Assembly: GCA_950295325.1 (NCBI GenBank)
Contig: OX485804.1
Coordinates: forward strand, 65,820,033 to 65,884,032
DNA: 64,000 nt
Direction: 5' to 3'
DNA from: Polytrichum commune
Taxonomy: Eukaryota; Streptophyta; Polytrichopsida; Polytrichales; Polytrichaceae
Made by a program: the position numbers and the translations under genes. Positions 1-22,100 of the stretch are shown piece by piece. Numbering within the stretch: the stretch's first letter is position 1; each line of letters opens with the position of its first letter. Below the pieces are notes generated by a model. The model was given only the letters and a program-made list of their open reading frames with translations. It did no database searches and was not told where the DNA came from.

Positions 1-80
1 CGGCCAGCCACATCTCTTGACGTAGGGACTTAATTTTCTCCCATGGGAAAAACTGGCAACATTTCCGATAGCAACAGTCT

Positions 81-1000
81 TTGGCGGACACAAGACGGAT
101 AGATTCGTCTCCCAATATGCGATCCCGTCGACGCTCCTTATCTCCTCGAGGCACACGGTTCGAATCATATTTGCGTAGGCCTTTGCGAGGACGTATTTTG
201 GCCAACAAAGCTAATTGTGTTTGCTTATGGCGCCGCTCATGGTCCAACAAGCTCACTCCGTCATGGAGAACCCGACAAAAAGGCCATCGACGCAAGGAAA
301 ATCTCCATGTCACCGGGACCTCAAGCGGAAGCAATGAATTCAAGATGCACACACCAACATCGTTCGGACCAAGGGGGTTGGCATCCACACAATCACGGGG
401 ATCAGAGTTTCTACATATGCCATCTGCCACAGGGACACCAATGTCGTTGAGTATGACGACATCAAGGCCAACCCATTGTTCCCTCCCGAAACCGGCACAC
501 AACGGAATGTCATCGTGGTCATCCCTGGAATGTAGAGATTGTTCGTGCACTTCTAAAGATTCATGGGAGGATGTATCCACAAACTCCCCCATCACGTTTG
601 GCAAACCATTACAACCCGCCGAAGGGGAAGAAAGTTCACACTCACCATCGAAGGAGGAAGAAATTGTGGACAACTCCAATGAACTATATGCCACGGACAG
701 CGCCATCCAACCTAAGCAAACCACTAATCAATGACCAAAACAAGAAGCACCGCAATGCACACAAAAGCGAAAACGAGAGCTGTGTAGATATATGGCTAAA
801 AAAACACAAACAACTCTCGCGGCACCGTTGGGGGACCTCACATATGAAGACGAACGTGCGTTCGAAAACAACGCCATGACAAGCAAATACTACGTGGGAG
901 TCACACACCAATGGACAACAGCATGCAATTGTGGTACATATTAACCGTGAAGGGTTTTGGGTCGATTTGCTAATAAAACATGGGAAGTGTTGCCAACCAA
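81..1000 (+). other. Degenerate coding-like segment, unidentified
   Basis: Protein-like stretches occur on the + strand, but they switch frame. One frame gives KLIVFAYGAAHGP near 205-245. Another gives VGIHTITGIRVSTYAICHRD near 375-430, with an acidic EYDDIK just after it. No single frame joins them, so this is either a frameshifted relic or exons whose splice sites I could not place. The following 250 bases are rich in Lys and His codons. I do not recognise the family. The first family A palindrome (ACGAACGTGCGTTCGA) lies inside it at 850-865. Confidence 0.25.
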
Positions 1001-1426
1001 CAAAGGAGAGCATACGCACATATATTCACGAACGCGCGGACGAGAACATCAACCCAACAAACAATGAATTATAAAAGGGATAAGCAACGTGCATTGCTCA
1101 GGAGCACCTAAAATGCACCTGCATCATTATCCACATGCAACAAGCATCGTAATTGAAGGGCATGTCTTTGACGGGTGTGTATCTAGGAACGACCGAACCC
1201 AAGGTAGAGCCTAAACTCAAGGGTGTATGTATACGATCGTTCGTAAGTCCTAGCCGAAACATATGGGCGTATGCATACGAACGATCAATCATGTGTTCTA
1301 GCCCTAACCGTGTTTGTAAAAATGTTGACCCATCAGAAGAAACATCTATAGCGTAGTAGTAGGAGGCATGTGCATAAATGAACGGATGTTTCTGTATAAT
1401 TGCAAAATAATATCAATTGATATTTA

Positions 1427-2061
1427 TGAACGCACGTTCGTGAATACCAGACCATCATATGTTCAGTTGGACATAACAGAGTCACGGGAGCGTAGGTGTC
1501 TTTGAGGGTTAGGAGGAAAATAAACGAACGCACGTTCGTATATCATTGAACATTTTAGCGCCCACGACTACCGATAAGTAGGTCAACGTGGAGTATTATC
1601 GAATGCTCTACTTACGAACGCACGTTTGTAAACCACTCGCATTACACGAACTTACATGCGCCTGTATCTCCAAGAAAATATATACGAACGCACGTTCGTA
1701 TATAATTGAACATTTTCGTGCCTATGACTACCTGTAAGTAAATCTACGCTGAGTATGTCCAATGCTCTACTTACGAACGCACGTTCGTAAACCACTCGCA
1801 TCACAACAACTTACGTGCGCATGTATCTGGAAGGAAATATATACGAACGCACGTTCATATATAATTGAACATTTTGTGCCTATGACTAGCTGTAAGTAAA
1901 TCTACGCTAAGTATGTCTAATGCTCTACTTACGAACGCACGTTCGTAAACCACTCGCATCACATGTCTGAACCACTCGTCTATATCACTCGTCTAAACTA
2001 CATGTCTAAACCACTCGCATCACATGTCGCTACCAAGTCATCTTTACGAACGTGCATTCGT
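1427..2061. repeat. Family A palindrome cluster in a 159-bp tandem repeat
   Basis: Eight copies of ACGAACG-NN-CGTTCGT start near 1427, 1524, 1614, 1684, 1773, 1843, 1931 and 2046. From 1614 to 1931 the spacing alternates 70 and 89 bp, so the real unit is about 159 bp with two palindromes, repeated from about 1524 to 1950. The centre is CA in all but the last copy, which is TG. The mismatching copies at 1614, 1843 and 2046 differ by CG to TG or CG to CA changes, as expected from decay of methylated CpG. Confidence 0.85.
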
Positions 2062-4480
2062 AAAAGTCCGGTATTTGCGGCGGTATATGCGGGTATGTGC
2101 AACCTATTGTGTACCTGGGAGGTATAGGGTGGGCGCACAAGAAAATGGTTTGTGCTCGTTCCAATCAGGTCTGTGGAGCGCACACTTGGTTGTGCCGTAG
2201 AAAAGAGCTCTGATGTGGGGGGAAGAGCTTTAAGTACCTCCCCCCTGATGGTTCAAAATCCCTTGGATGCTATTTAAAAAGCGGATTCCCGCCGCCTACT
2301 TTGACCTAACAATATGCCATTCCATCCATGCGGAATAAATAAATAGCATTATGTATGGAACATGTCTTGCATGCACGCAACATATTGTAAATATGTCAAT
2401 CGGTCGCACACCTTAGTTGTCACCAAGGTCTCACGTGAATATATGTCTATATTTATATGTATATATGAATTTCATATTGTATATTATATTATATTATATT
2501 ATATATACACATATATATAATATTAGATTTATAATGTCTATATAGGTTTATGGTTAACATTGAATTTAAATGATTTGCAACTAAGGTGTGAAGTCCAAGT
2601 TAATTGACGATTGATTATACCTAATAAAGTGATGAAGGGTTTAGGATAATACATATTCACACACACAATGAGGTAAGAGTAGCTAAAAACATGTTGTGGA
2701 AGCCCCTAAAATTGTAGGTATCATATGATTCACATAAAAAAAATGCCCGTAATATGGTCACCAACTGCATGAATACCAATAAAAAGTCGTTTAATCCATA
2801 ATGGTTTGTACTAGGTAAATTGAGGACATTTTGAAGTAATCATACCCAATATATGTAGGTAAGGTCTTCATTCAAATGTAACACTAGGTTTGAAAATAAT
2901 GAATTAAAATGGCATGATTGGAAATGATCAATCACTTTGGAACGGTGCATACGATAATGATAAGAATTGAAACCATGCCTACGTGAAGTCACACTTACAA
3001 TTATTAATATCATGTGTTTGACGTCCTATGAGAAATAGAATTTCCTCCACCTTTTGTAAAGGTTTAGGATAGCGCAGGCTCGCCACAATATGAAATTGAG
3101 TCCTTTATCCAATAATTTTTTTTTAAGGAACCATTGAACACCTTGAAAGACATATTGTCCATGAAAAAATTATATTTTAAAACACCATATACACATGCTT
3201 GCGGGTGGATTTTTCATTTGAATCCACCCCCTACACTTGAGGCTCGCCAAACATCGGACCATATTATGAACTACAAGTTTAAATGCAATTGATCATTGGT
3301 GAAATTTAAAGTTGATGGCACTAGTATTCGTTTGTTAGTTCAAGTCGACAACTAATTAAATGACTTGACCTCCTAAGAAGGGTTGGTAAGATAAAAAGAT
3401 GTAGGGTTAGGGTTTAGGGTTTGGGGTTTGGGGTTAGTGTATATGGTTTGTGAAAGTTGTCTAATATGTGGTTTGCGGGCTTAGGGTTTAGATCGTTAGT
3501 GATACTTAGGACGGGTTTAGACTTGGAGTCAAGGCTCAAAAATGGGTTGGGGTGAAAGAAATCCACGCCTCTCATTGGTAGAAAGGCTAGGATTTTCCTC
3601 TTCAAGTTTACACCATGAGTTGGGGCCAATCACAAATAAATTATTTTATTCATCATGACAATGGCCTCAAGCCTTGGAAAAGAGAGCTCCCAACATTGTG
3701 GACTCTTTCCCTCTTGTTGAGGCCATTGTTAGAGCTTTTATTCGCTTATAGTAGTTTATTCTTTGAGCATTGAGTAGGAGGGGAGAAATTCTAAATTTAT
3801 TATACTTTAATTATTATCCATAGAATAGTTCATGAGTACGTTGGAACCTCTCATAACCCTCTCATAATTGCAACCTCCAAATGGCCCCAACCCCACCTAA
3901 ATAGGTTTACACATGAAAGCAATGAATGGAGTTAGGTTACTTTCTTATTAATGGCCTTTGGGGCCCATTTGCATGCCACATGGGACATATTGGCCTTCGT
4001 TCACAATGGCCTTGGCCCCCAGTCTAAACAGGCCCTTAGTGTACTATGCGTTCGTATTTAGAGTATCTAATACTAAATATCATATTAAGGGTGGGTCAAG
4101 CTAACACCTCATGAAATTAATGACATCGTATTGAAAAATGAATTTTCCCCCACCTCTTGAGGAGAATCTGATAGCCCCTCTCCACAATTCAAAATGCGTC
4201 CTTTATGTATGTAAAATTTGTTTGAGGAACCATTGAACAACTTTAAGGATGTGTGGTTCATGAAAACTCTATTTTGCAAAACACCATACACACATTGGGG
4301 TGGATTCTTCATCGAAAACCTACTAAATGACATGCATTGTGTTGTACAAATTAACTGAACATACTTTTCTAAAATATGTTTACAAGGAATCCAACTGTAG
4401 AGGTATTCAGGGGATACGGAATGTAAAATTCATGTCCCCGAACTAAGCTCCCACCATTTCGTATTTCTTAATTCGTAAAC
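2062..4480. other. Non-coding repeat-derived DNA
   Basis: I see no gene here. Open frames are short and AT-rich. A segment near 3120-3240 recurs in diverged form near 4205-4325 (both contain AAACACCATA followed by a TGGATT...TCAT stretch). Parts of 3640-3950 recur at 17215-17340 in a shorter form. The sequence GCGTTCGTATTTAG near 4047 recurs at 16508, where a similar A/T-rich stretch follows. These are copies of dispersed repeats I could not assign to a class. Confidence 0.55.
3404..3440 (+). repeat. Interstitial telomere-like repeat (TTTAGGG type)
   Basis: Degenerate GGGTTAGGGTTTAGGG units, the Arabidopsis-type telomere motif found in most green plants. Similar tracts lie at 15517-15541 (CCCTAAA, several units) and about 17193-17212. 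All are short and internal, so they look like interstitial remnants and not a chromosome end. Confidence 0.7.
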
Positions 4481-4484
4481 CCTC

Positions 4485-4616
4485 ATCCCTCCCTATCCCC
4501 ATTCCCCTCCCATCCATCCCCATCCCCATCCCCATCCCCATCCGCATCCCCATCCCCTCCCCCATCCCCATCCCCATCCCCATCCGCATCCCCATCCCCT
4601 CCCCCATCCCAACCCT
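4485..4616 (+). repeat. CCCCAT minisatellite
   Basis: Tandem CCCCATC units form a roughly 53-bp block that is itself duplicated head to tail, including the rarer CCGCATC variant. It is a simple tandem repeat with no coding sense. Confidence 0.85.
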
Positions 4617-4799
4617 GGCCAGTGGCTGTCAGCCACGTGGCAGCCGCCAGGAAACCCTAGCGGTGCCGGCTACCTCCCCGCGCCTCTTCCTCTCCTCCTC
4701 ATTTGTCATTTGGAGCAGAGGAGGAGGGGAGAGCTTAGGTGCGGCGAAGCCCTGGCCATTTGTATAGCCGCATTTTATGTTTATTCTTGGCGCGCATTG

Positions 4800-5100
4800 T
4801 CAGAAGCTTGAGAGTAGGATCGCTTGAGAGGTTGATATTTGTAGAAATCTTGAGAAGGTTGAGAGTTTTGGAAAGCTTGAGAGGTTTAGAGTTTTGGAAA
4901 GCTTGAGAGGTTTAGAGTTTTAGAAAGCTTGAGAGGTTGAGTGTTTTAGAAAGCTTGAGAGGTTGAGTGTTTTAGAAAGCTTGAGAGTTTTAGAAAGCTT
5001 GAGAGGTTGAGTGTTTTAGAAAGCTTGAGAGTTTTAGAAAGCTTGAGAGGTTGAGTGTTGCAAAAAGCTTGAAAGCTTGAGAGTTTCAGAAAGCTTGTGA
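4800..5100 (+). repeat. AAGCTTGAGAG minisatellite
   Basis: More than ten imperfect units of the form AAGCTTGAGAGGTTGAGTGT plus TTTAG, with a period of about 26-28 bp and shorter variants. The period is irregular and the unit has no palindrome, so it differs from the family A arrays. It precedes the 5.6-6.3 kb palindrome cluster and could lie in the 5' region of the gene at 6350, but I see no clear promoter. Confidence 0.8.
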
Positions 5101-5600
5101 GTTGTGTTTACATCAGAATATTTGTAGGATTTGTAAATAAATTCTGAAGGCTTGAGAGTGTGAGAAAGGAGCGAGGGTAGAAATTGCATTTGAAAGCGAA
5201 ATCAGTGCATTTGTGAGGTTTCTGGATTTCTGAGTAGCAGGCAGCAGGTTTTGGGTTTGCAACAATTCAATGTGAGTACAGGTTTCCTTTTCAAAACACT
5301 TCTTTGCAATCTGAAATTGTTCTTTGTTGAATTCCATGTGTCATGTTTTATGCATTATGAGCTTTGTCATGTTTTGTATGAATTAGGACTTTCCCCTTCA
5401 TTATGAATTCTTAATCACTGAATCTCAATGTTGTTGTCATTACATATTTCACTTTGTGTTTCATCATTCTGATCAAGAGTTGCAGGCAGAAATCCAAGCA
5501 ATGTCGATAGCAACATTCATAAACCCATACGTATGTATACGTATGTATACGTATCCGTATATGTACGGAAAGCATTTATTATCATACACAGACGACCACA

Positions 5601-6318
5601 TTTACGAACGATCGTTCGTAAATGTGGCGTTTATACATCTAATACACCAAGCCCTTTACTTTTACGAACGCACGTTCGTAAAATACGCACTCACCTTCTA
5701 CTTTTACGAACGTGCGTTCGTAAAATACCCACTCACCTTCTACCTTTACGAACGTGCATTCGTAAAATACCCACTCACTTTCCACCTTTACGAACGTGCG
5801 TTCGTAAAATACCCACTCACCTTCTAATTTTCCGAACGTGCGTTCGTAAAATACGCGCTCACCTTCTACTTTTACGAACGTGCGTTCGTAATTGATTAAA
5901 TAAGGAACATCTTGTATTTGCGAACGTCCGTTCGTGAACAAACACTGAATCACATCAATATCCTAGATTTACGAACGATCGTTCGTAACCAGGGATCCAA
6001 ACACACCCAAGATTTGCGAACGCGCGTTCGTAAATCTACACAAAGGCATGGACACAAATATGTGTACCCAAAAACTAATAAAAATGAGCCCAAAAAATGA
6101 AAATAAAAACGAACCCTACACCTTTTGATTACGCCATATGAACATCACAGCACTCAAATACGACCGTGCGTTCGTATTTATTGAAAATGAATAACACCTT
6201 GGAAATCAAACCAAATTTGCGAACGAACGTTCGTAAACAAGAACCAACAGATGTCTTGCCAATAATAAATAATTTATTGACGACCTGCAAATGCCAGTAA
6301 CGAACGCGCGTTCGTAAA
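5601..6318. repeat. Dense family A palindrome cluster upstream of the ParB-like gene
   Basis: Thirteen copies of ACGAACG-NN-CGTTCGT lie here. Six form an exact 42-bp-period array (starts 5664, 5706, 5748, 5790, 5832, 5874). The others start near 5604, 5920, 5971, 6016, 6160, 6219 and 6300. Most extend to TTTACGAACG on the left and CGTTCGTAAA on the right. Centres include AT, CA, TG, TC, CG and AA. The last copy ends about 34 bases before the 3' splice site at 6349. Because 42 is a multiple of three, both strands stay open across the array; I treat those frames as artefacts. Each copy carries four or five CpGs. Confidence 0.95.
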
Positions 6319-6349
6319 TGCAATTCTGAATGTGTCTGTTACATTGCAG

Positions 6350-9300
6350 ATGGCTAGACCAGTCAGGAGCGCAATCGAAATGTTCGCGGTTCAGTTGGAT
6401 CGGCTTCCGGAGTCAGTGACAGATGACAATGGGAACGATAATTACGTCCCCAAAGATGACTTCATGGGGGAGTGGACGGCGCTCCCGGAGAAAATCGAGG
6501 GTGGATTGTTCGCCCTGAGATTCACATACGAGTTGGAGACAAGGCCAGACCAGCCGGAGCAGTGGGTGCAGATGAAGACATGGGAGATAGAATCCATAGA
6601 GGCACAGGGTGATTTTGTTATTTTGGATTTGAAAAATAAAAAAGACCACATCAACCTCCTGCTGGACTTCAGGAGGCACCCTTTCTCCCATACATACGCA
6701 CAGAATAATGTTGTAGAGGATGCCAAGCATTTCGACCTCGTGAACCTTTTCACGAAGTACAGCCTCAGCCAGCATTGGACAGCCAGGAAGTTGACTGCAC
6801 TGGCCCTAAATATGTCCAAGTATAACAGTGCCGTCGTGGAGGCCAACAAGAAGAAGAAGAGTCCCAAAAAACCTACTGCATCCGGAGCAGGAGGTTCTAG
6901 AAGTGCGCCGCGGCTAGTGCCTTCAGCTAGCAGATTGTCAGAGGGGCCAAGCAGACACTCCACGCCATCTAAAAGAACTCGGGACGATATGGAGAAGTCT
7001 AGTGTCACGGAGACAGCTGAGGTCAACTCGCCGCCTGTCATGCCGACCCCTTTGAAGAAGGGGGAAAACCCTGATGCGGCAAAGGCGACTCGTATCCTTC
7101 GCGACTTCAACAATTACTCGAAGGATTGCTGGCCCATGGGACGGCACTTCACCTTCAACGTGGACTACTTCACATGCGAGAAATCCCCCAACAAGTGGGT
7201 GGTGAGGTCACGTGAAAGCGGAGGTGTGAAGTGGCAAATCAACAACTTGATGAATAACGTGAAGTGGGATAGGCAAACTGTGTGCGTTATGCCAAAGGGT
7301 TTCACTTCCCGTCCCACGGAGAAAGATTGGGCAAGAATCCAGAATGGGGAGTTCTGGATTATTGATGGACAGCACAGCCTGGAGGCATCGCAAATCATCC
7401 TCAAGGATGATAACTTCCAGCATGAGCTGAAGGGGGACCTGCGCTACTGGAAGGCGTTCCTGGTGTGGTCAGACGACTGGGACAAACTCCGGAAAATTTC
7501 GACATTTTTAAATTCTGGGAATAAGATCAAAGCGTTTGAGGCATCATGGGCAGCAAACATAGTGGCTGCGAGAGACGTGTGGGTGGCACACGGGTGCCCA
7601 CCAAAGGAGAGGGAGAATGCGAAAAACCAGTCTCCACAATGGAAGGTAAGTTTACGAACGAGCGTTCGTAATTCTCAGGTTCCTTTAGAACATTCCTGAT
7701 CATTTTATTTACGAATGTGCGTTCGTATTTGATTGACCGATGACATTCCTTTCTAATGCAGGCGTTTTGCGATGCGATGGTGGACAAATTCTCTTCCATC
7801 GACATGAAGTCCACTTCAACGAAGTCAGTGCTCGAGCTGAAGGGTGAGCTCCGGCTTATTTGTTGCAACAGAGACACCTGGGATTTGTGGACCCAATTTT
7901 TTGATGCTCACAGTGCGGGGGATCTCGTCAACCCCGACACTGAAGAAAAATATAATCAGGAGAAGACTGGGGAAGCGCCTCCGCTGCTGAGGGAATTTTT
8001 TAGGCCGCTTCAGGGGTTGACGGAGTCGGAATTGCAGAGATGTGCAGTTCATGCTCTTGGGAACACCGTCGGGAGAACAATCCCCTATCCGAAGATTTTT
8101 TTGAAGAGGCCAAAGCACAGGCCCGGAACGTACTCCATCAAGGAGTGGTGCGAACATCGCAAGTTGAAGACCAACGCAATGAGGGAGTTGGGCGCACTAG
8201 TCCCGGAGTACAAACTCTTCCAGGCCGACGGGGACATCAACTGGGCTGGATGGAAGGAGTTCAAGGTCGGGTATAACATCAACGGCTCTTCCATGCGTAG
8301 GCTAGTTAAGGAACACGCCTCCGTCTTGAAGCTGAAGGGGAACAAGCGGACCAAGAAAGCAGAGACAGATCCCCAGGAGGTGGAGTTGTATATAAAGTTT
8401 TTGGAGAGGAAGCGGAGGGCCACATTCGAGGGAGTGGCCAGGTTTTGTTTGGTAACCACCGGGCTGGAGAGGACCACTTTTTCTAAGTGGGACGGCACCA
8501 TCAGCAGGGCCGAGGTGAGGGAGGACCGCAGGGGTTGCCCATTTGCCCTGATTGATTTCAGGGGGATCCCAGGAGGTGCGAGGCAAGGGGCAAAGGATTT
8601 TCCCTTCTACAACCCTTTCATGGCAAAGTTTCAAGACTACAGATCGCCTGAAATGAGGGAGCCTCACGTATGGCTTTGGATAGTGGAACAAGAGAAGCTA
8701 TCCATTGTCACTGAGCTGTACGAAAATACCATCAAATTTGAATACAACATCTACCACAGCACCTACGTGCCCGCAAAAACGGAAGGGATCGTGGCCATCA
8801 ACGAGGCCAGGGGCAACAAGCAGGTGGGAGCTGTCAGCTTGATCTTCTTAACGTACAATGCTCTCAGAAATGGGAGAGCGCCTATGAAGGCAAACAGTAC
8901 TTTCAAGAAGATATACAGCATCCCTCACCCCCCTCCCAAGGAACTGTTGCAGGAGACACTGTACACGGTTTTCCCCGCGTTGGAGCTCAGGTTGGAGTTC
9001 TACGTGTCAGTGTTGCAGAGTTTGGCAATCAGTGGAGAGACTGTCTACAACATCTTTGGAGGCAGCAAGTTCATGTACGCGGCCATGGTAAGCTGTCATT
9101 CTTAGATTTACGAACGCTCGTTCGTAATTGTCATTGATTCAAATGTTATAATAGTTGTGGCATTTTTTCCCTTTGCGTTGATCTGGCCTTGTCTCAATGT
9201 TGATGTTTACGAACGCACGTTCGTATATGCTGACATGTTTGGAACGTTGGTACAGATGCTGGGGTTGGTCGTCAATAACTACGTTGACGCCCAAGACGAG

Positions 9301-10859
9301 GATGAATACCAGGTCCACAGGGTGAAAGCGTCCACAATGGACCTCGATGACATGTGTGTCCCCAGGGAGGACTTCAGCATGCCCGTCGACGAAGGCATGC
9401 CGGGCTTGGAGACAGACGAGGACGAGCCCGCCCCCTCCGTGGACGTGGACGTAGACGCCATCTTGCAGTCGTTCAACATCACTCCTTTACGGATGTTGGC
9501 GCTAGCGGGTCACCCGTCTGACCCCCAAGGGACACCGGGGGGCTATACAGGATCCTCGGCTGGGACAACCCAGGATGTCCTCCCCGCTAGAGTGTCGGGT
9601 GCGGAACCCTTCGGCACACCTGGCGGCTGTTCGACGTTAGTGTCTCCCAGGCCCGTCGTGGTTCCGAGGATGGAGACCCTCGACCTCCTCGACCAACGCT
9701 CGCGTCCATCCTTGGACCACTTCCGGAACACGAGGAGGAGGATGAAGAAGACGCCATACGTGGAGTTGCCGGAGGGAGCAATCATCGAGGTGTCCGACGA
9801 TGACGAAGGGGACATGGACATCATGGCGGAGCTGGGGGTGGATTATGACAAGAACAAGCGTGTGAAGGAGGAGGCGTTGACGGTTGCCGAGCTGAATGCC
9901 AAGCTAGAGCAAAAAATGAAGGAGGAAATGGCGGCTGCGGCAGAGGAGAGTGCAAGAAATATGGCCCGCATGCAGGAGGCGCTGCGGGAGTCTGCAGCAA
10001 AGACGGACGCCATATTTGAGATGCTTAGAAATATGCAGAGCTTCTCGGCGCCAGCACAATAGCCTTACCCCTTCCCTGGAGGATACCCCTCCCATACCAC
10101 CCTTCCAGGCCTGTTCCCCGGAGGACCTTCGCACCCACCAGCACCACACCCAACGCCAGCTGGGAGTCCTCCGCCCCTTCAATTGACTGCCACCCCCTTC
10201 AACTCGGACGATGCGATAAGGGCTGCCATACGCGAGGACGAAGATTTACGAACGCGCGTTCGTGAATCTTCAGGTCCGGCAGTCCTAACCCCTCCCCCTC
10301 CAAGGGTAGGACTGGCCTCAGTCACTGCCACCGCCTCTTTGACAGTCGTCCCGAGGGTAGTGCATAGGCAAGGCGATGAATCTGCGCAACACACTGACAT
10401 GGTCATTGTGGAGGAAACGCAGGGGAGCCCCAATGACGCGGCAGCTGTCCAAGGAATGGACGTTGAGAGCCCTGACCTGGAACGGCATCCATCCGCGGAG
10501 ATGGAGGATGTCCGCATGGACACTCTCGACCTGGGCGGAGATGACGACGACGCGGATCACATTGTGCAGACCCAGGCGTCACAGTCGGAGCGTGCCACAG
10601 ACGCCATGGAGACAGAGGCGGCTGGCCCAATGGGGATTACGAACGCGCGTTCGTTAATCGAAGAGGAGGGAACTGCTCGGTCCAGCGCCGCTGCCCCTCC
10701 CCGTGATGACGAGGTAACTCTCCTCTGAGAATACCACTCATTTGACGAACGCGCGTTCGTAACCACTAACCCATGCGCGTTGTGTTCTTGGCGGTTCCTG
10801 TCCATCAGCATCACGAGGCGTGCGAGGACCCTTCTCTACGTGGACCCTTAGCCCGATAA
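6350..10859 (+). CDS. ParB-like plus degenerate DNA-methyltransferase-like protein, four exons
   Basis: Exons 6350-7645, 7762-9087, 9256-10713 and 10809-10859 join in phase 0 with clean GT-AG introns and give about 1,376 codons. The ATG directly follows a TTGCAG acceptor, so a 5' UTR exon probably lies upstream, or coding starts earlier. Residues 339-343 read DGQHS inside FWIIDGQHSLEAS, like the ParB/Srx-fold DGxHR motif. Residues about 857-895 run GETVYNIFGGSKFMYAAM and on to VNNYVDAQDEDEY, which matches methyltransferase motif I (D-x-F-x-G-S) and its following acidic strand. A weak TELYENTIKFEYNIYHS and VSLIFLTYNAL segment precedes it, the permuted order of beta-class enzymes. No intact catalytic DPPY is visible, so activity is doubtful. 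Exon 3 ends in an acidic, coiled-coil-like and Pro-rich tail with an in-frame TAG at 10060-10062. Every intron contains family A palindromes. The domain calls come from motifs by eye. Confidence 0.6.
7654..7726. repeat. Two family A palindromes in intron 1
   Basis: Copies at 7654-7669 (centre AG) and 7711-7726 (centre TG, one CG to TG change in the left arm) fill much of the 116-bp intron 7646-7761. The first begins only eight bases after the splice donor. Confidence 0.9.
9110..9224. repeat. Two family A palindromes in intron 2
   Basis: Copies at 9110-9125 (centre CT) and 9209-9224 (centre CA) lie within the 168-bp intron 9088-9255, both with perfect arms. Confidence 0.9.
10060..10062 (+). 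other. In-frame amber codon in exon 3
   Basis: The frame reads APAQ, TAG, PYPFPGG. It stays open for another 217 codons of proline-rich and acidic protein up to the GAG|GTAACT donor at 10713. A single CAG to TAG change would explain it. If real, the protein ends at about residue 1142; if a variant or assembly error, it continues. The TAG follows CAA, loosely like known leaky stops, but the downstream context does not match a readthrough motif well. Confidence 0.75.
10249..10264. repeat. Family A palindrome within exon 3
   Basis: A perfect copy with centre CG lies in the coding frame and is translated as LRTRVRE. A second exonic copy at 10639-10654, also centre CG, is translated as TNARSL. 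Both lie after the in-frame TAG. Neither breaks the frame. Confidence 0.85.
10745..10760. repeat. Family A palindrome in intron 3
   Basis: A perfect copy with centre CG inside the 95-bp intron 10714-10808. With the copies in introns 1 and 2, all three introns of the gene carry at least one. Confidence 0.9.
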
Positions 10860-11082
10860 ATTTTGACCCTTAGCCCGAGAAATTTTGTAGAACACGGCAT
10901 GTATTTGCCATAGGAAACTGTGAAAAATTATCACGTGAGACAATTGTAAATATTCACCGAATTAATATATGAGCAGATGATCTCTGTGTCGCATCTCCCA
11001 AACTTATTATATCGTATCGCATCTTGTATTATGTATGTTCATGCGCATCATTACACTTTCACGCCCACTTTCACCCTCCTTC

Positions 11083-11180
11083 ACGAACGAGCGTTCGTAC
11101 ATGTGCTTCTATCCGCGCTCACGAACGAGCGTTCGTAAATGATGCGCCACCCCAGCCTTCATTCACGAACGCTCGTTCGC
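11083..11180. repeat. Three family A palindromes before the HAD exon
   Basis: Copies at 11083-11098 (centre AG), 11121-11136 (centre AG) and 11165-11180 (centre CT, last base changed) lie about 38-44 bp apart. They sit upstream of the 3' splice site at 11296, so they are probably in an intron or the promoter of the HAD gene. Confidence 0.9.
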
Positions 11181-11296
11181 AAGTCTGCACTTGACCACAT
11201 TCTCCTTGCACTATTTTCCTCGCATAATCGTCTTTTCCTCAATGCAATGTTGTTTATTGGATCATAGAATTAAACTAGTCGAGTTGTTAATCACAG

Positions 11297-12064
11297 GATC
11301 CCCCGGAGATAGGTCGGAAACCCTCGACCAGTGGACGTCTTACCCGAAACAAACCGTTCGTCGTATTCGACCTGAACGGGGTGTTGTGTCACACCGAACA
11401 CATCCCCCGGGTCCCCACGCGTCCCTTCCGTCACCTTGACGAAAGGGACTACGACGGAGAGCTCAACACTCTCATTAACCGCAAGGCTGTCCGCGCCCGT
11501 CCCGGCCTGCGTGACTTCCTTCGAGAGGTGCTCGATGTAGCTCACGTCATTGTGTGGAGCTCCATGGTCATGGAGAACACCGAGCCAATCGTCGACTTCC
11601 TCTTCCGCGATCTTCCGAGCCCTTGCCTCATCCTCGGCCAAGAGGATTGCGATGAATTGCTCGACGAAAAGGGTCTGCCGGTTCCAAAGTTCGGCGGTCG
11701 TGGCGGAGGACAACAATTCCTCAAGGTCCTGAGGTCAAGACTGTGGCGGGGCATCCCCCGGTTGCAGGGGGTACCCCACGGGTGGTGGCCGACCCCCGAG
11801 AACACCGTCCTCGTCGACGACAGCCCCACCAAAAGCGTCTTGAACCCCCCGGGGAACGTCATCTTCCCCGCCACTTGGACCGGCGATAGGAACGACACGT
11901 TTTTGGTCGATACGCTAGCGCCTTACCTTAGAAGGCTTGTTGTCCACGCCGGTAGCATACCATTTTTTGTTAGGTCCAACCCCATAGGCAATGTGGGTTT
12001 AAGCCCCCGTGATAATGTATTCAAGAGCATCATGAGGCTCGCCAAACTCAATAAATTGATTTGA
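11297..12064 (+). CDS. FCP1/NIF-type HAD phosphatase-like protein (3' exon)
   Basis: The exon starts after TTAATCACAG and runs to TGA, 255 codons; upstream exons are not resolved. It holds the HAD series in order: motif I FVVFDLNGVLCHT (nucleophile Asp in DLNGV), motif II VWSS, a candidate lysine in LPVPKFGG, and motif IV VLVDDSPTKSVLNPPGN. That final block is typical of the plant FCP1/NLI-interacting-factor group that dephosphorylates Ser/Thr sites such as those in the RNA polymerase II tail. The second Asp of the canonical DxDx motif is Asn here, a form I recall from some plant homologues. Substrate is unknown. It could be the downstream part of a larger gene with the 12177-13162 exons, but no good donor proves this. 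Confidence 0.75.
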   Translation, partial: DPPEIGRKPSTSGRLTRNKPFVVFDLNGVLCHTEHIPRVPTRPFRHLDERDYDGELNTLINRKAVRARPGLRDFLREVLDVAHVIVWSSMVMENTEPIVDFLFRDLPSPCLILGQEDCDELLDEKGLPVPKFGGRGGGQQFLKVLRSRLWRGIPRLQGVPHGWWPTPENTVLVDDSPTKSVLNPPGNVIFPATWTGDRNDTFLVDTLAPYLRRLVVHAGSIPFFVRSNPIGNVGLSPRDNVFKSIMRLAKLNKLI

Positions 12065-12176
12065 AATGCCTCCATGTCTTTGCTTTGTATCAAGTGGTTC
12101 ACATTTACTAATGCTTGCTTCGTTTTTGGATGTCTTTTGTTGTTGTGATTGTTGTTGTGATTGTTGTTGACCATAG

Positions 12177-13162
12177 TCTGCCCCCATATGCGACGCCCCT
12201 GTGGTCGACGGCCCTTCCCGTCCCCTCTCGCCACCTGCCTCCCCTTCCCGCGACGTCACGGACTTCCAAATGCCATCCCTCTACCAGTTCTCGGCGGTCG
12301 ACGCGGCCTCGGCCGTGGATTACTCCCGCGACGTCGGCATCGACGACGGCGTCGTCAACAGCCCGCCCCCCGCACTTGTCGCCCGCGCCTACGCCCCGTC
12401 GCCCTCCCCCCTCTCCAAGGAGAAACGGACGCTCGTTCGTTTGGGGCACCTCTCGCCCTCTAAGGACGACGGCGTCGCTCGTCGCGGGCCGAGCCGGCGT
12501 CTCCGCATGGAAGGCCCCCGTTGCCACACCTCCCCCACCGACTCCGTTCCTCCCCCCGCAACGTCCTCCGCCATCGTGGGCCCTCCACGCCTCGACTCCC
12601 CCCCGCCATCCAACAGTGCAATAGTTCCATCGGCTCCGGATGCTCCCGTCGACGCCCCCCTCGTTCCCACCGTTCCCCGCATGGACGTCCCCAAAGCCAA
12701 GGTGCCCTCCTCAACCCTAAACCCCTTTCCCGCTTTTGCTTCCCTTGTCTTCCGTTTGCGTGCCGTTCTCTTTACGAGCGCCCATCCCAAACCGCCCTCA
12801 TTATTTTCCCCACTCCATTCCTATTCTTATCTTCCTATGACGTTGTTTCGCAGGTGGCTACCCGCTCGCTTGGTGCCCGGCCCTCCTCCACGTCCTCCTT
12901 GGATAGGCACGCCCTCAGGGCCGCATCTTCCGAGTCCGATCGTTGTCTGGCCCTCCAGAGAAGCGCAAGACGTTCCCTTTCGCAAACACCCTCGCATTCT
13001 ACTTATAATACCACCTCTTACAATTCGGGAGCGCGTCCTGAAACATGCAAGAACGACACATATTCATGTCCAGGCAACACACAAGGATACAGTCGTGGGC
13101 CTGAGATTTTTAGAGCCATGGAGGCCGCCAAAAAAAAGGACTTAGCCGCAAAAAAAAAATAG
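12177..13162 (+). CDS. Pro/Ser-rich protein with Lys-rich C-terminus, two exons
   Basis: Exon 12177-12701 follows an ACCATAG acceptor. Exon 12854-13162 follows TTTCGCAG and ends in TAG; the frames join in phase 0 across a 152-bp pyrimidine-rich intron. The first part is low-complexity Pro/Ser/Ala with many acidic residues. The second is Ser/Arg-rich and ends AAKKKDLAAKKK. I recognise no domain. A broken family A copy (ACGGACGCTCGTTCGT, 12426-12441) lies in the first exon. It may be the C-terminal tail of the HAD protein just upstream. GC-rich open frames on the opposite strand are shadows. Confidence 0.45.
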
Positions 13163-13784
13163 TGGGTCGGACTAGTGTGACTAGAAGCGTACTAGTGGGA
13201 CGGACTCCCTAAATGGGCTTAGGTGTAGAACATATTTAAGTGCTTACTTTCTATGCTATTCCAAGTTACTCAAGACATTGATGGTATTTCCATTATAATT
13301 GTATTTCAATCCCAATTAATTCATTCAACTTCCATTCATTCTTCGCATCTTCCCTTCCATTCATAACGAGTTGTCTTTCATACGCAACTATTTTCATGTA
13401 TGCCTCACATTTTTGTTCACTTCCATGCCTTTATGTATAATAATAGTAGCATACCATTATACATATGGGATTTTTAGTCGTCATTACCGGTCCAATTTTG
13501 AAATGTGCATCCTTATATAGTCTCATAATCAACAAAAAGTCTCCAAATACCGAATATAGTGTTTAGAGTTAGGGTCTTAAGAATATGAATATATTGAATA
13601 TTGTGTAGTGGTCAAATTATCCAACAGGAGAGCAATTTTTGGTGACCTTCTACAGCCGCGCTGGACATATGTGGACATGCCAACAAATATCAGACGATTT
13701 CAAATTATAGCCATTTGAATATAATTTCTTGTTGATGGTGGGAAGGATGTTTATTTTGGGATATTGGATTTGTAGGTTGCAGAG

Positions 13785-13868
13785 TTTGGGTCGTTCGACC
13801 CAAACCAACTGCAGAGTTTGGGTCGAGCGACCCAAACCAGCTGCAGAGTTTGGGTCGGTCGACCCAAA
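13785..13868. repeat. Three tandem family B palindromes
   Basis: TTTGGGTCG-NN-CGACCCAAA occurs three times at exact 32-bp spacing (starts 13785, 13817, 13849) with perfect arms. The central dinucleotides are TT, AG and GT. The linker is a CTGCAGAG-like sequence. Confidence 0.9.
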
Positions 13869-13972
13869 CTAACTGCCCAGTTAATTCTTTATGGGTTTGG
13901 GGTTTAATATAGAGGTTTCGGGCGTCTACCGAAACCGTAGTGTTTCAATATTCATACATAATGTCTTACGCT

Positions 13973-14002
13973 GCATATACAATGCTTATGCATTGTATAT
14001 GC
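13973..14002. repeat. Perfect 13-bp inverted repeat, 4-nt loop
   Basis: GCATATACAATGC, TTAT, GCATTGTATATGC. The arms match perfectly. It is a single copy in this window and AT-rich, so it may simply be a cruciform-prone site. Confidence 0.85.
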
Positions 14003-14965
14003 ATGAAGACCCTAAAGGATATGAAGCATGTTATGTTGAGTGAAATTAGTTACCTTGATGCAAGCTCTGCCAATCTGATGTTGTTTTGCCAATAGGTTTT
14101 GCCAATCTGATTCTTAGAATCAGATTACACCTGAACACTCAGATATCACTAACACTCACTAAAATTCCTCTCACTGGATTTCACAAACAACTCACACACA
14201 CTCTTAATCTCAGATGCACTCAATAGTTTGTTTTTGCAACAACCTGATCGTTCCAACAAAACCCTAAGCAGTCTGAAATCACTCAAATAACTTAAGAACA
14301 AAAACACACTTCAAAACAACAAAAATACTTTGAAATCACTACAAGCGCGCACTTTAATACAAAAACACACTCCTAACCAACAAACACACTCTGAAATCAC
14401 TCAATGGTCGTATTTTTAAACAAACAACACTCCTAAACAACAAACACACTCAATGCGGATACTTTTACACACAAACACACTCAATCACTCAATGTGGATA
14501 CTTTTACACAAAAACACTACCCTAAACAATAAACACACACTACAATCACTCCTAAACCCTCACAAGAAGAAGAGAAAATGAGAAAATGAAGGTGAGACAA
14601 TGCCAGAAGGAGAATGAAGGTGAGACAATGCAAGAAGGAGAGAATGGAAAAGGAAGGTGAGACGGAGCCGAAAGGTTGGGGCTAGGCGGAGGCGCCGCTT
14701 CATGACAAGGAGTCAGAAACGAGGGAGAGAAAGGAGGGAGTTTGGCGCGGAGGGATATTTATAGAGTTAGAGGGGTTGCCATGGGACCCAATCTGGGCCA
14801 TGGGAGCGCCCCGAGCCCATCTACGGCTCACAAGCCTCGCGGGCAGCCACCCTGCCATGTGTCAACACCTTATTGGTGATGGTGGCTACCCGAGGCTTCT
14901 GGGGTGCACACCTGGCGCCTAGCGGCCACCCGGCCTCCTGCCCGCCGAAGCCCGGCCCCGGCCTT

Positions 14966-14991
14966 CTAAGCCGCTATCTATAGCGGCTTAG
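14966..14991. repeat. Perfect 12-bp-arm palindrome with 2-nt centre
   Basis: CTAAGCCGCTAT, CT, ATAGCGGCTTAG. The arms are perfect and the centre is two bases and asymmetric, the same design as palindrome families A and B. Single copy here. Confidence 0.85.
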
Positions 14992-17898
14992 CCCAAAAAT
15001 CGAAAAGCAACATAGCCTAAGGTATTGCACAAAATTAACACCATCACCAACTCTGATTTTAATGGTGTTCAATTCAATGGTCCCGCGTTGGAATTGCTTA
15101 CATCATAGAATGAATCCATTATTTGTTTTAGTATTTGAATATTGTAGTCATATGGAGTAAGATGAGAGCGATACAAAGTCTAAGAGGAGTATTTCATAAG
15201 TATATTGCAATCCTCAAATGCAATTGCACGGTGCAACAATTAAAATATGGTGACAATTTACATGGTCAAGGGTTTAGTGCTCTCTATTGTAATTTCTATA
15301 ACCCAAGTTCGTAGAAGATAAGGCTCTAGCCTACAATGGATATTACCCACCCAAGTAGCATTAAATTCAACATTTATATCAGTACATAGAAGTTGACATT
15401 TGAAGTACATGGGAGATACACAAAGATTACAAATTTATCTACTGCAACCCCATGGAGTTCAACATCATATGAAGCCATTTAAGCATTAAGCTTGATGTTC
15501 GATGATCCCTCCAACCTAAACCCTAAACCCTAAACCCTAAACACCGCAAGCCTTAAATGAATGGCACATAAGGTTAAATGACAGGGCCTTAGTGCTTGTA
15601 GTTTCCAATACAAATGTATATTGTCTTGACAACATCCTAATCATATGTGCTCACGATCATGTCAACCAATATTAAGTTATAACAATGTCTGTCTAAAAAG
15701 AAGAGTATAATAACTTGATTATAGTATATATGATCTTCATACTAGATTTCAAATGGACTTCATGATAGTTTCAAACATCCTTGAAAAAGTGAACTAAAAA
15801 GTCCTATTCGTGATGGAATTTCCATTAATGCCTTTCACATAGGTTATCCATTGCCACACTTGTATGTTGGACAATGGATCAACGTTGTGTGCACACATTA
15901 TAAACGTCACATGTTCTTTTAAAGCTTTTCTCATTTTATTGTTGCAAATTGAAAGTTGGCCAATTTATTCAAATTTGTCATGAGATCAATTCCTTGTTTT
16001 CAATGTATAAGTCCTCATGTGAAAGTCTTCATAACGACATAAACTGTAATTGTATTTGGTGGCTTCAGCTATATGAAGTTTCATAATGTTGCCACATATA
16101 TTGTCAAGATATTATTTGAAATAAACCATAATATTTGAGTCCAAGTAGAGTAATATCCTGGAAGTACATAATTTAATTTGTATGCAATGCATCAATGTGA
16201 AGTTGTGGAGGATGGGTTCTCAAAATCAGTTATCAAATATCATTTTCTTCCCAATGGTGCATGTCATAGGTACATAAAATGAGACAGTCTACCCCCATCA
16301 ACAATAATTTTAATTTTTTCGACAAATATTGTTATAGGATATTGGAAGATATATTGGAGATCTTTCTTTATCATTTTTTTTTCATATCCTTACTAACACT
16401 ATATTTAAACATGTAACTTCAACATATTACCATAGATAATATTGAGTGTTTGAGTTTACAATGTTTGATGTTACTTACTTTCATAGTGGTATTAGTATTG
16501 AGTAGATGCGTTCGTATTTAGTGTATCAAACTCTAAATATGTTATTTATTGTAGGGACACTACAACACTACATTTTTCGTCAAACATTTTTTAAAACAAA
16601 TAAAGTTAACTACATTTTTTTGACAGGTCAAATCACAAATAACTTAAGTTACAAAACCCAACTACACAAAATATGATATCTAGTGTTTGATACCCTATAT
16701 ACAAGCGCATGCACTAAATATCAATAACCATATGAAAGTCAGTGACATAAAATGTAAACTCTCACAATAAGTATCATCTATGGTAATATGTGGAATTTAC
16801 ATGTTTGCAATTAGTGTTAGGAAGGATGTGAAAAGAAAAAATATACGTGAAAGTAGAAGGTAAGCGACACATTTATGTGTAACAGTAATTGTCAAAGATT
16901 TAAAAATTAATGTTGAGCATAGTAGGGTGGTAACAACACTAAATATAATGAAACACACACCCCATATTTTGTGTAGTTATTTCATCACGGAATTAGCAAT
17001 GTCATTTGATGGTTGGCGCCACGAAGAGCCACGAAGGCCACACATTAGTAAACTTGAAGTGAACTTCAAGATGGATTCAAATATCATTAACAGATTGAAC
17101 TAAAAAGCGACATTGGTAGTTAGTATCCCTTTAACAACGTCCACATACGTTCCTCATTGGCACACTTGCATGCGAGATAATAGAGCAATGTTCTAGGGTT
17201 TAGGGTTTAGGGGAGACAAATAAATAATTTTATTCATCACGACAATGGCCTCAAGCCTTGGAAACCCTTTCATAATTGCAGCCTCCAAATGGCCCAAACC
17301 CCACCTAAATAGGTTTACACTTGAAAGCATTGAATGGAGTTAAAATATTTGTTAAAATATACCGTCATGACACTTGAAAAAATTAATGTGGCCGCCACCC
17401 TTCCTCCCAACGGCGTATGTCATATCCACACAAGACAAAAAAAAAAGATTAAATATCATAGACTAAGTCATATGACGGCTGGGGTATCAGAGGGGCATTG
17501 AAAGATGCGCATTTTCTACTATAAAAAAAAAACGGGGAATTATGTCAGGAGGTTTGAAATAACCTCTGCAGGAAAACAAGGCGGGAAAGGCATCCAATGA
17601 GGAAGTCCGAGAAACGGAGGTGGATAGTATAAAGGGACGCACCCCCCAAAAGTCTGTCATTTTTTGCTCTTCTCCCACTCTTGAATTCGTAGAGAGAACT
17701 CTTAGTCGGAGCTATACTTCAAGGTTCGTGCATGCTGCCGTTCATTAGCACTTATCCACAGCATGCAAGTTCATGAGCACCTACCCACAGCATGGAAGCC
17801 CACCGTGAACTTTGCAATGAGCTCAAAAACAACACATTTCGGATTATCCGCCGCATTATCCGCCGGATTTTGAGGATTTTAGTGTGACTCTTATCAGG

Positions 17899-18958
17899 TT
17901 TGGATCGGTCGACCCAAACCCCTCCGCTACTGTGGGCGGGTTTCAGCCTGACCCTGATCAGGTTTGGGTCGGTCGACCCAAACCCCTCTACTAGTGTGGG
18001 CGGGTTTCAGCCTGATCCAAACCTATCCCCTCGTGAGGCAGGTACTAGAGTGCACAAGGAGCCCATCCTGGCCCTCAAGGTTTGGGTCGGTCGACCCAAA
18101 CCTATCCCCTCGTGAGGCAGGGTCTAGAGTGGACAAGGAGCCCATCCTGGCCCTCAAGGTTTGGGTCGGTCGACCCAAACCTATCCCCTCGTGAGGCAGG
18201 GTCTAGAGTGGACAAGGAGCCCATCCAGGCCCTCAAGGTTTGGGTCGGTCGACCCAAACCTATACTCTCATGAGGCAGGTACTAGGGTGGACACGGAGTC
18301 CATCCTGCCCCTCAAGGTTTGGGTCGGTCGACCCAAACCTATACCCTCATGAGGCAGGTACTAGGGTGGACACGGAGTCCATCTTACCCCTCAAGGTTTG
18401 GGTCGGTCGACCCAAACCTATACCCTCATGAGGCAGGTACTAGGGTGGACACGGAGTCCATCTTACCCCTCAAGGTTTGGGTCGGTCGACCCAAACCCAC
18501 CTTCACATGAGGCAGGTACTAGGGTGCACACGGAGACCATCCTGCCCCTGAAGGTTTGGGTCGGTCGACCCAAACCCACCCCCACATGAGGCAGGTACTA
18601 GGGTGGACTTTGAGCCCTTCCTGCCCTATAAGGTTTGGGTCGGTCGACCCAAACCTTACCCCATAGTGGGCATGTACTAGGTTTGACCCATCCCATTGCC
18701 CTTACATAATTTGGGACGGTCTACCCAATCCATCCCCACTGTGTGGGTGCTCTCTGTTATGAGCCTGAACCCATCTTGCGAAAAGGTTTGGGTCGCTCGA
18801 CCCAATTTATCCCCACTGTTTGGATGGAGTCTGGATGACCATGATCCCATCGTGCCACAAGGTTTGGGTCGCTCGACCCAATTTATCCCCACTGTTTGGA
18901 TGGAGTCTGGATGACCATGATCCCATCGTGCCACAAGGTTTGGGTAGGTCGACCCAAA
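17899..18958. repeat. Family B palindrome array, 79-bp period
   Basis: Copies of TTTGGGTCG-NN-CGACCCAAA start at 17899 and 17963, then at exactly 79-bp steps from 18081 to 18634 (eight copies), then decayed copies near 18711, 18787, 18863 and 18939 at about 76 bp. Nearly all have centre GT; those at 18787 and 18863 have CT. The spacer contains CTC(A/G)TGAGGCAGG and diverges faster than the palindrome. The array ends about 200 bp before the transposase-like pseudogene at 19155. Confidence 0.95.
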
Positions 18959-19154: not shown

Positions 19155-22100
19155 ATGTTCATGTGTGTAGGCAGAATGAATGGGTTTAGTGAAAGAGGGG
19201 ATTGGTCATCTGAAGATATGGCCACTTGGCCATCTGCATCTGAGGATGAGATAGACATTGTCGGGGAGGATACTTTGGCTGACAGTGCAGATGAAGATCA
19301 TTTGGATTTACCTTCGCCTTCCGTACCGCAATGTCCCATTGCTGAATGTACGGGACTCTCAAGGGCTTCATGGGTGAATTTGGAGGTGGTACTTCTTAAT
19401 GACAGTGGAGTTGTTGTGGCGGAGGGGATTTGTCGCAACACCCATCCACAAGATTGCATTGATGAAAACCCGCTTGGCACCGAGGACGTTGGGGTTGTCA
19501 TATTGGAGTCGCTCGTTCATTCCGAGGTGGATCCCACTCATAGGTTCTCCCTCCGGAGGTGGCCATTGAGGAATGTCACGATTGATGGAGTTAGTTTGTG
19601 TGAACATGAGCAACGACACTTGCAAATCCAAAAAGAACAGCAATCAAACATGCGGCCACGCAAGGGTCAAAGAAAGTACGATACATTGGCACGTCCTGCT
19701 CCGTCTGCAACTGATTGTAAACGTCAAAGGTTGCTCGGGGAGGAGTCCATTAGAGAAGTTGCCACAAAGGATTGTTGTGTGCATCGTTGTTGCCAATTGT
19801 TTCCCCGGGATAAATTGTTGGCCATCCGCGAAGAAATGTGGCTTGGTGATTTCCGTCTAAGATCCACCAAAAAAACTTGATGTGCATAGGGCGATACATG
19901 TGAATGGGGCGGGTCGCCAGGTCATCACCATTGAGAGCATAGACGTGTGTTGCAAGGCATGGTACACCATTCATGGTGTGTCGAAAGCGGACTTTTATAA
20001 ACAAGCTGCTTATGCCAAGGAAGGCCGCCGGTCCCGTCACCATGGGAACGTGGGTTTAAAGAAACCTAGGGAAGCAACAAGGCAAGCAACGGCCACTCTA
20101 GCAACCATAATTGTCCCACTTGCCGATGCAATACCGCACAAAACACGCACACTCACAACTGGTGAAAAGGTTGTGGAGAAAGTTCTTCCCACAGGCACAA
20201 AATGGAAAGACATATTGTTGGATGTAAATGCAGTTGGCGAGAAGATTGGGTTGGAGCCAATTTCATCTTCAAAATTAAGTGCAATCAAGAAAGCAAACTT
20301 CAGCGAATACATTACAAAAAGACGAGGGGACAAATTTGCAAGGTGCTCTAATTGCGAGAAGTTGAAGCGCCTTCGGGATGCACACACGATGGGTACCGAA
20401 TCGTTTGCGGTGCATCAATTGAACTATTTCAAGCACGTAAACATGCAAGAGGCACACCGAAATGATTACTACACAAATAGAGCGTTGTCCATCTCCAGGC
20501 CCTTGGAAGTTCTTACGGTCATCCATGACAAAATGGACCATGCCAAGACAGCCTCCCCATGTTTTGCAAAACGAATCAAGGCCACGGATGGGTTTTTTAA
20601 GTTGCCCGTATCGGTTACAGGTGATCTTCGAAACAATGTTATGACATACCCTAAATATTGTTGTATTTTATTATGTGATGTACTTGAGAACATTGATTCA
20701 TTCAAAATGATTTAGACATACATAGATACTAATCACTTTGGGTTGGCATTGTAGGAATGATTGCACATGGACACGGTGATGTCAAGTTTGCCCATTATGC
20801 TCTTGATTTGTATCCAGCAGATTCAAACCACACGATAGGGTCATTTGCAAGGCTTTTGCGTGATTTAGAGAAACCGCCAGCCTATTCTTCAGGATTGTTA
20901 TTTGAAAACACGGGTTCAACACCTTTATATGAAGCAGTGATGGATGGAAAAGATGTATGCTTGCATTCGTTGCCCGAACCACCCAGTGAACCCGTGATAG
21001 CCAAGAAGTTGCCCCCCACTTTGCGTGTCCAATTGGACAATTGTGCCAAGGACAATAAAAATAGATATGTATTTGCATATTGGTCATTGTTGGTTGCGAA
21101 AGGCATTTTCAAGGAGGTTTTTGTGTCCTTCCTATTGGTAGGCCACACGCACGACGATATTGATGCATCTTTTAGACGGTGGAGCATGAAGTTGCGGGAG
21201 GAGGATTTTCCTACAATCCCGTTATTGATGAAGTCGTACATGGATTTGGAGAACGCTCCCGTCATCCCCCATATGATTGAGGAGGTGCCAGACTTCAAGG
21301 CATTTATAGAACCTTATATTCGAAGTGGAGCTCATCGATTGATTGGCCATACGAAGGCACAACAATTCCGGTTCTACATGCGTGACGATGGTGTCCCGGC
21401 CATGCAATACAAGTTGTTGTGCACGACACAAGACTGGAGCCCGCCAGAGGGTCTCCTTGTGTGGTGCGTGGATGCGGATGGGAAGACCATGTTACCGGAT
21501 GGAGAGCCTAGCCTTGCAAGCCAATAGCCATGAAGAATTTGGAGGATATTTTGAAAGGTATATCAGGCTTCATTCAATATTGGGAGAGTTTGAAGATAGC
21601 GGATGTTGGCGGATCATGTTGGCATCGTTATGGGAGTTAGATACATTATTGGACACGTGTTCGTGCGGCCTTGGCCGACCTCCACCAAGATAGCCCTCAT
21701 ACTTTGAGGCACGGATTTTGGCCACAAACTCGTATCGATGTACAAGCTTCGGAGGCTAGTCTTTTGAGTAATGGAGAGGTTCGTGAGGTGTTTGATATGG
21801 ACGACCATTACGTTGGGCCTGCTAGTCAACGTCCCCCACCATCTTTCCGCATTGCAGTGGATTGTCATGAAGGTTATATGCTCATTTTGCGTCCTGGAGA
21901 TGAGACATATGCAAAGCCAGTGTGGGTGGCAAGAGCTTTGTCCAATCCAAATTTTGTATCTTCCAGCCCTCATTTTCGACAAATACAAGTAGAGTACTAC
22001 CGACCGACAGCACGGAATGAAGATGTTGTTCGGCATTATACATGCTGGGATACAAACCAACACTTTCGGTGGAAGGTGGATTCTGAGCACGGTCCATCTT

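Follow-up and report, generated by a model that had tools for sequence, protein, structure and literature searches.

A palindrome of the form ACGAACG-NN-CGTTCGT, which recurs in a stretch of 64,000 nucleotides of the Polytrichum commune genome (GenBank assembly GCA_950295325.1, contig OX485804.1, positions 65,820,033 to 65,884,032 of the forward strand; hereafter the window), is part of a large DNA transposon, TE1. Two related transposon families, TE2 and TE3, carry palindromes of their own in place of it. On balance, we lean towards the reading that the palindrome is a family-specific docking site for a dimeric DNA-binding protein encoded by the element itself, probably the product of the gene at 6350, and that this protein would activate or un-silence the element. 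We call this product GQHS, after its IIDGQHS motif.

The window was scanned for ACGAACG-NN-CGTTCGT with up to two mismatches allowed, and 33 sites were found at 850-12440 (19 exact and 14 with one mismatch), with no further site in the rest of the window and a mean of 0.05 in shuffled sequence. The exact pattern ACGAACGNNCGTTCGT occurred 19 times in the window and was absent from 100 dinucleotide-preserving shuffles. An earlier note on this DNA had reported about 33 copies with at least eight forms of a variable centre, and the scan bears out both the number and the forms, as all eight dinucleotides that it named (CA, TG, AT, CG, AG, CT, TC and AA) are present. The context-dependent spacing that it described was recovered as well: sites recur every 159 bp in an array at 1514-1963 and every 42 bp in another at 5653-5891, a group at 11083-11180 is spaced by 38/44 bp, and the rest are scattered. 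Its remark that the arms often extend outward also holds: the TTT/AAA flank extension is frequent, and T occupies 80-93% of half-sites among the 155 distinct exact contexts from the fetched loci. A second palindrome type, TTTGGGTCG-NN-CGACCCAAA, has 14 occurrences at 13.78-18.88 kb of the window and is the key to the finding of family-specific sites.

The palindrome had also been described as confined to one locus, which is correct within the window and incorrect for the genome, where 5,602 exact copies were counted in the 408-Mb assembly, compared with 4 for a reversed-pattern control. The 18-bp cores of the TE2 and TE3 palindromes gave 10,011 and 953 exact genomic matches, respectively, with 0 for the control in each case; the TE3 centres were only AA, TT or AT among the matches listed. 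Even spread through the genome, or explanation by one ordinary satellite, had been named as an outcome that would speak against the earlier note, and neither was found. The first 100 listed of the 5,602 sites fall into six clusters on one contig when grouped by eye. Three of these clusters contain a GQHS gene and one (L049) contains a fragment of a NIF-like open reading frame (ORF); the remaining two were judged by site spacing alone to be pieces of TE1. At L049, 33 exact palindromes lie in two groups at 848-6282, with the NIF-like fragment further to the right; GG/CC centres are common, and no GQHS-type ORF was seen in the cluster. This cluster is possibly a deletion derivative.

The boundaries of TE1 were obtained by comparing the window copy with six other fetched copies. 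The window copy is 16,399 bp long and starts 2,836 bases to the left of window base 1 (position 7165 of locus L001), with 13-bp terminal inverted repeats AACACTATATTCG...CGAATATAGTGTT. Both ends were read in four of the seven copies (W, C4m, C7p and C6p), which are 16.1-17.6 kb long and have perfect 4-bp target-site duplications (TAGA, AAAG, TAAG and CAAG). The right end was read in six copies, these four together with C3m and C1b; C1a diverges shortly before it, and the left end of C3m was looked for and not found. The unoccupied site of the window insertion is present in locus L011 with a single TAGA, and the TE1 copy of the window is nested inside TE2. The inverted ends, the target duplications of constant 4-bp length and the empty site are features of a cut-and-paste DNA transposon, and TE1 is read here as a large element of this type.

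In TE1, a minus-strand DUF7869 gene lies head to head with GQHS on the plus strand, which is followed by a NIF-phosphatase ORF on the same strand (Table 1). Whether the palindrome is linked to the gene family at 6350 had been posed as a check in the earlier note, and the link is supported, the palindrome being part of the transposon that bears this gene. The DUF7869 gene matches PF25273 (6.2e-31 on L001:8663-9139), its product is presumed to be the transposase, and Pfam analysis detected the gene in TE1, TE2 and TE3. GQHS has three exons, the third of which is lysine/glutamate-rich and, by eye, coiled-coil-like. The window copy has an in-frame stop at 10060-10062, whereas three sister copies read at this place continue in frame through an acidic tail; the place was not located by script in three others. 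Homologues of GQHS exon 1 were scored at 97 places of 1,083 candidates in the genome, several of them at 98-99% identity.

The best hints to the kinship of GQHS were matches at E=0.09 to GmrSD_N and to the DGQHR model TIGR03187, given by one of 13 members in each case, and models of unrelated families reached equal or better values (0.043 and 0.064). TIGR03187 had zero matches across the whole P. commune genome. No GQHS relative was confirmed among viral contigs, phages, plasmids, and bacterial and archaeal genomes, and the one weak plasmid match (E=3) was to a sigma-54 regulator. A fold search of the PDB with the exon 1 model, which is of low confidence, gave no match below E 0.17. Motif-like stretches had raised the possibility that exon 2 is a degenerate methyltransferase, and this candidate was dropped as the searches gave no support.

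The TE1 sites are found upstream of the DUF7869 and GQHS genes, within both GQHS introns and the tail, and on either side of the NIF gene. The four full copies have 30-37 sites each, and the number in the first cluster varies among them (9, 14, 13 and 10). When up to one mismatch was allowed, none of the 135 sites in these copies was found in the conserved coding parts, although these parts, with the tail ORF not counted as coding, make up 42% of the length. This avoidance gives p = 4e-32 if related copies are treated as independent, and about 1e-8, reckoned by hand, for the 33 sites of the window copy alone. At the same threshold, the first site in each of the four full copies starts no earlier than position 3686, counted from the left end, and the last site ends at least 1.12 kb from the right end.

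Conservation of the sites was evaluated in an alignment of GQHS intron 1 from 14 TE1-clade loci. The pairwise difference was 6% in the arms, 19.5% in the centre and 37% in the rest of the intron, and the arm value is inflated by locus L041, which is misaligned over a displaced second site. With the exception of this second site of L041, both intron 1 palindromes are conserved across the alignment. The TE1 centre is tolerant and not uniform, with CA/TG the commonest (73 of the 155 distinct contexts). CpG transitions account for 33 of 61 one-mismatch variants in TE1 and 11 of 38 in TE2, compared with a hand-reckoned expectation of about 12 and about 3, which gives every change the same chance and takes no account of transitions being in excess generally. 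The share fits a decay of methylated copies. Among variants with two mismatches, 2 of 18 in TE1 and 0 of 6 in TE2 were compensatory, and because such variants are rarely compensatory, the letters appear to be read, not their pairing. The earlier proposal of a two-half-site protein target thus gains support, at the level of sequence, from the fixed dyad, the tolerant 2-bp centre, the arms conserved against a diverging intron and the few compensatory changes.

The TE2 palindrome is GTTTGGGTCG-NN-CGACCCAAAC, with 14 sites in the window, and the nearest TE2 site found to the right end at 22771 is about 3.9 kb away from it. The minus strand of L001 bears a TE2 homologue of GQHS (phmmer 3e-42 among other matches, from the ORFs of the region), and the NIF gene was read in the TE2 copy L032 (4.4e-15). 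In L032, the sites at 1040-1781 lie upstream of GQHS, those at 3302-3473 and 4923-4995 fall in introns 1 and 2, respectively, and those at 6220, 6289 and 6593 belong to the tail region, an arrangement that matches the site positions in TE1. Between TE1 and TE2, 581 of 918 aligned DUF7869 residues are identical (63%); identity is 32% at the GQHS N-terminus, 47% in its core and 39% in exon 2, and 45% for NIF.

The TE3 clade was reached through a search with the DUF7869 family, and its palindrome is CCCACGGGTG-NN-CACCCGTGGG. Sites were found upstream of the TE3 DUF7869 gene at L050 7035-7868 (PF25273 1.3e-46). Locus L053 contains a diverged GQHS gene (hmmsearch on the ORFs of four loci, 2.9e-14 for exon 1 and 2.6e-20 for exon 2) and a NIF gene (1.6e-8), with sites upstream of GQHS, in intron 1 (one mismatch), in intron 2, in the tail and before NIF; the intron limits were placed by analogy. 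We infer that the DUF7869 gene of L050 and L052, which are one copy, and the GQHS gene of L053 form one element, having read them from different copies. The ends of TE3 were searched for and not found. The trio of DUF7869, GQHS and NIF is common to all three families, and the sites of all three are 10+2+10 bp with, by eye, G at half-site positions 6 and 10.

The association between element and site was examined up to 2.7 kb around GQHS at 36 loci, with up to one mismatch allowed. TE1 palindromes alone were present at 16 of the 17 TE1-clade loci, and the remaining one, the decayed L044, has no site at this threshold and two sites at two mismatches. All 16 TE2-clade loci carry TE2 palindromes only, and no locus with both types was found among the 36. 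The script did not assign locus L038, which a separate comparison placed in the TE1 clade; L019, L021 and L026 are chance pattern matches without GQHS homology and carry no palindrome. TE3 palindromes occur only in L050, L052 and L053 (three stretches representing two copies) and are absent from the other fetched loci and from the window. Further clades were sought with degenerate DNA patterns, which gave 378 and 507 places; from the 100 listed of each, 18 and 8 were fetched, mostly with unusual spellings, and all the homologues obtained were TE1- or TE2-clade.

As the type of site follows the element, the reader of the palindrome is probably element-encoded, and GQHS appears the best candidate: all three families have it, its sequence combines an acidic tail with a coiled-coil-like stretch, and it is less conserved than DUF7869. 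We propose that GQHS would pair through its coiled-coil-like region and bind both half-sites as a dimer, without contacting the centre. Binding would probably open the methylated element or lift its silencing and promote transcription of the GQHS and DUF7869 genes, a role suggested by the sites near the start of each gene and in the introns of the regulator itself. Between families, the letters of the half-sites would have changed while the geometry stayed. With its own site, each family could limit the effect to its own copies, and host genes would be spared.

Several points weigh against this proposal. The DNA-binding role of GQHS is a prediction, and the palindrome could instead be read by DUF7869, NIF or a protein of the host. 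GQHS had no significant match to any known family in profile and sequence database searches, and the structure models of exons 1 and 2 were poor (mean predicted local distance difference test scores of 41.1 and 37.5, respectively). NIF, at 45% identity, has diverged about as much as the GQHS core, so rapid divergence is not a sharp pointer to GQHS. The sites are not strictly non-coding, as two per copy lie within the GQHS tail ORF, and the one-mismatch variants of TE2 are mostly at non-CpG positions (25 of 38). In addition, the related copies of one family do not count as independent and the loci were chosen for variety, not at random, so that the independent sample of specificity changes consists of three families.

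Other explanations of the palindrome were considered alongside the one that we favour. Transposons often carry arrays of short sites for a transposase or an accessory protein, such as the TnpA sites of CACTA elements, and the palindromes could be sites at which the element's own transposase brings the ends together. Their family specificity agrees with this; however, they mark gene starts and introns and lie far from both ends in TE1 and from the right end in TE2, at the distances given above, and we consider such a function distinctly unlikely. Alternatively, the palindromes could be sites of host transcription factors that are used as enhancers, with different families having captured different factors. 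The positions near gene starts and in introns would suit enhancers, and a 22-bp dyad would suit a dimeric factor, but the 10+2+10 design is common to three families with different letters, and the site type tracks the clade. Moreover, no cluster lay clearly outside the element among the first 100 listed of the 5,602 genomic places, two of the six clusters there being assigned by spacing only. We regard a host factor as unlikely.

A fixed dyad with a variable dinucleotide is the typical look of a serine recombinase core, and the earlier note had offered a recombination core as a second reading, with the free 2 bp as the crossover. This suggestion did not fare well, because no recombinase domain was present among the Pfam matches of the scanned ORFs (small ORFs were outside the scan) and tens of compatible sites, many of them in direct arrays, would be expected to delete the element, yet 30-37 persist in each of the four full copies; we judge it extremely improbable. 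Action of the palindromes as RNA hairpins, in processing or as a source of small RNA, is conceivable for the many sites in introns and upstream regions, which are possibly transcribed, but the fixed letters and the low number of compensatory variants indicate more than pairing and make this very unlikely. We give almost no credence to the idea that the palindrome is an incidental part of an ordinary satellite or other tandem repeat. Two arrays (159 bp and 42 bp) do exist, but their units differ in length and sequence and single intron sites stand in other surroundings, and in our view the intron 1 alignment refutes the satellite reading.

The docking-site proposal can be compared with known systems. 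CACTA elements (En/Spm) have ends that start with CACTA, a 3-bp target duplication, Transposase_21 and subterminal TnpA sites. TE1 is similar in its large size, in a terminal repeat that contains CACTA and in an array of short repeats resembling protein sites, whereas its ends are AACACTA, its target duplication is 4 bp and its sites are far from the ends; Transposase_21 was absent from the Pfam matches of the scanned ORFs. In bacteria, a ParB dimer reads the palindromic parS, and the DGQHR (DndB-like) proteins are bacterial. The GQH motif of GQHS resembles DGQHR, with the best matches to the two models at only E=0.09 and from one of 13 members each, and the palindrome read by dimeric ParB is a formal parallel.

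VANDAL elements have a Mutator-type transposase and a 9-bp duplication; here, DUF7869 stands in place of the Mutator transposase and the duplications are 4 bp. Transposon-encoded, sequence-specific anti-silencing has been described for the VANDAL elements of Arabidopsis, and the papers on VANC report that it binds within introns and between genes, that the motifs are specific to each family and that their tandem arrays change (PMC5735166, PMC10398659), with VANA more conserved than VANC (PMC5735166). The moss elements are similar in that their short motifs recur within introns and in intergenic and upstream stretches, frequently in tandem arrays that change. The motif likewise differs between related families, and conservation is lower in the presumed regulator than in the presumed transposase. 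Unlike the VANC motifs, which are given there as 8-9 bp and non-palindromic, the sites described here are 22-bp CpG-containing dyads with a tolerant centre. The VANC domains DUF1985 and DUF287 were absent from the Pfam matches of the scanned ORFs. By analogy, the system may work by VANC/VANDAL logic without being a member, as its proteins are unrelated in sequence and its type of motif and class of transposon are different.

A bolder and more doubtful interpretation, which we put forward tentatively, is that plants have a second self-recognition system encoded by transposons, represented by these elements, and that it evolved independently. GQHS, with a ParB/DGQHR-like core, would pair on 22-bp CpG palindromes and protect or reopen its own family, and replacement of the palindrome throughout a family, in at least three versions, would have produced mutually blind lineages that live in one genome without cross-activation. 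Judged by titles and the starts of abstracts, no description of these elements was recognized in the open-access literature searched, and DUF7869 had no literature match there. Three related families in one genome provide matched candidate protein-site pairs with long, unambiguous palindromes, which makes a change of specificity in such systems directly testable by protein and site swaps in vitro. If the proteins do bind, they would be family-specific DNA readers of 22-bp targets.

Table 1. Features of TE1 and TE2 in the window (window positions, unless a locus is named)
Feature	Position	Strand	Remarks
TE1, part inside window	1..13563		ends AACACTATATTCG...CGAATATAGTGTT from copy comparison
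TE1 DUF7869 gene, first exon region	1..592	-	tblastn with TE2 ORFs; gene extends left to about L001 7571
Palindrome cluster 1, 9 sites, 159-bp array	850..2061		upstream of TE1 DUF7869 gene
Palindrome cluster 2, 13 sites, 42-bp array	5604..6315		upstream of GQHS start at 6350
GQHS exon 1	6350..7645	+	contains IIDGQHS
GQHS intron 1 palindromes, two	7654..7726		at 7654 and 7711
GQHS exon 2	7762..9087	+	
GQHS intron 2 palindromes, two	9110..9224		at 9110 and 9209
GQHS exon 3	9256..10062	+	ends at in-frame stop in window copy
Acidic C-terminal tail ORF	10063..10728	+	two palindromes (10248, 10639)
Palindromes upstream of NIF gene	10745..11180		at 10745, 11083, 11121 and 11165
NIF/CTD-phosphatase-like ORF of TE1	11291..12064	+	PF03031 3e-16
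Last TE1 palindrome, one mismatch	12425..12440		1.12 kb from right end
Right target-site duplication TAGA	13564..13567		left copy at L001 7161-7164
TE2 palindromes, 14 sites	13783..18884		upstream of TE2 DUF7869 gene
TE2 DUF7869 gene, several exons/ORFs	19155..22240	+	PF25273 3.3e-45 on 20733-21527
TE2 right end	22735..22771		13-bp terminal repeat same as TE1

A fourth, more distant DUF7869 clade (TE4) was observed at L051 2461-6750, where long 59-bp tandem arrays with the near-palindrome GGTGAGGCATATGCCCCACC lie upstream of the DUF7869 gene; this array is possibly another pair of family and site. Just to the right of the TE2 end, at window 22770-25787, there are minus-strand ORFs with Cys/His-rich stretches, perhaps another mobile element; a scan of two of these three ORFs gave no significant Pfam match. 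A tandem unit of 171 bp forms two arrays, similar in consensus, that also lie to the right of the TE2 end (27935-28358 and 30359-30789). Plus-strand ORFs of 143, 204 and 512 amino acids occupy 32197-34754, the first and last of which were scanned with no significant Pfam match. Short interstitial telomere-like repeats of the TTTAGGG type were seen at window 3402-3448 and 15515-15542 and at L050 136-168 and 4063-4094.

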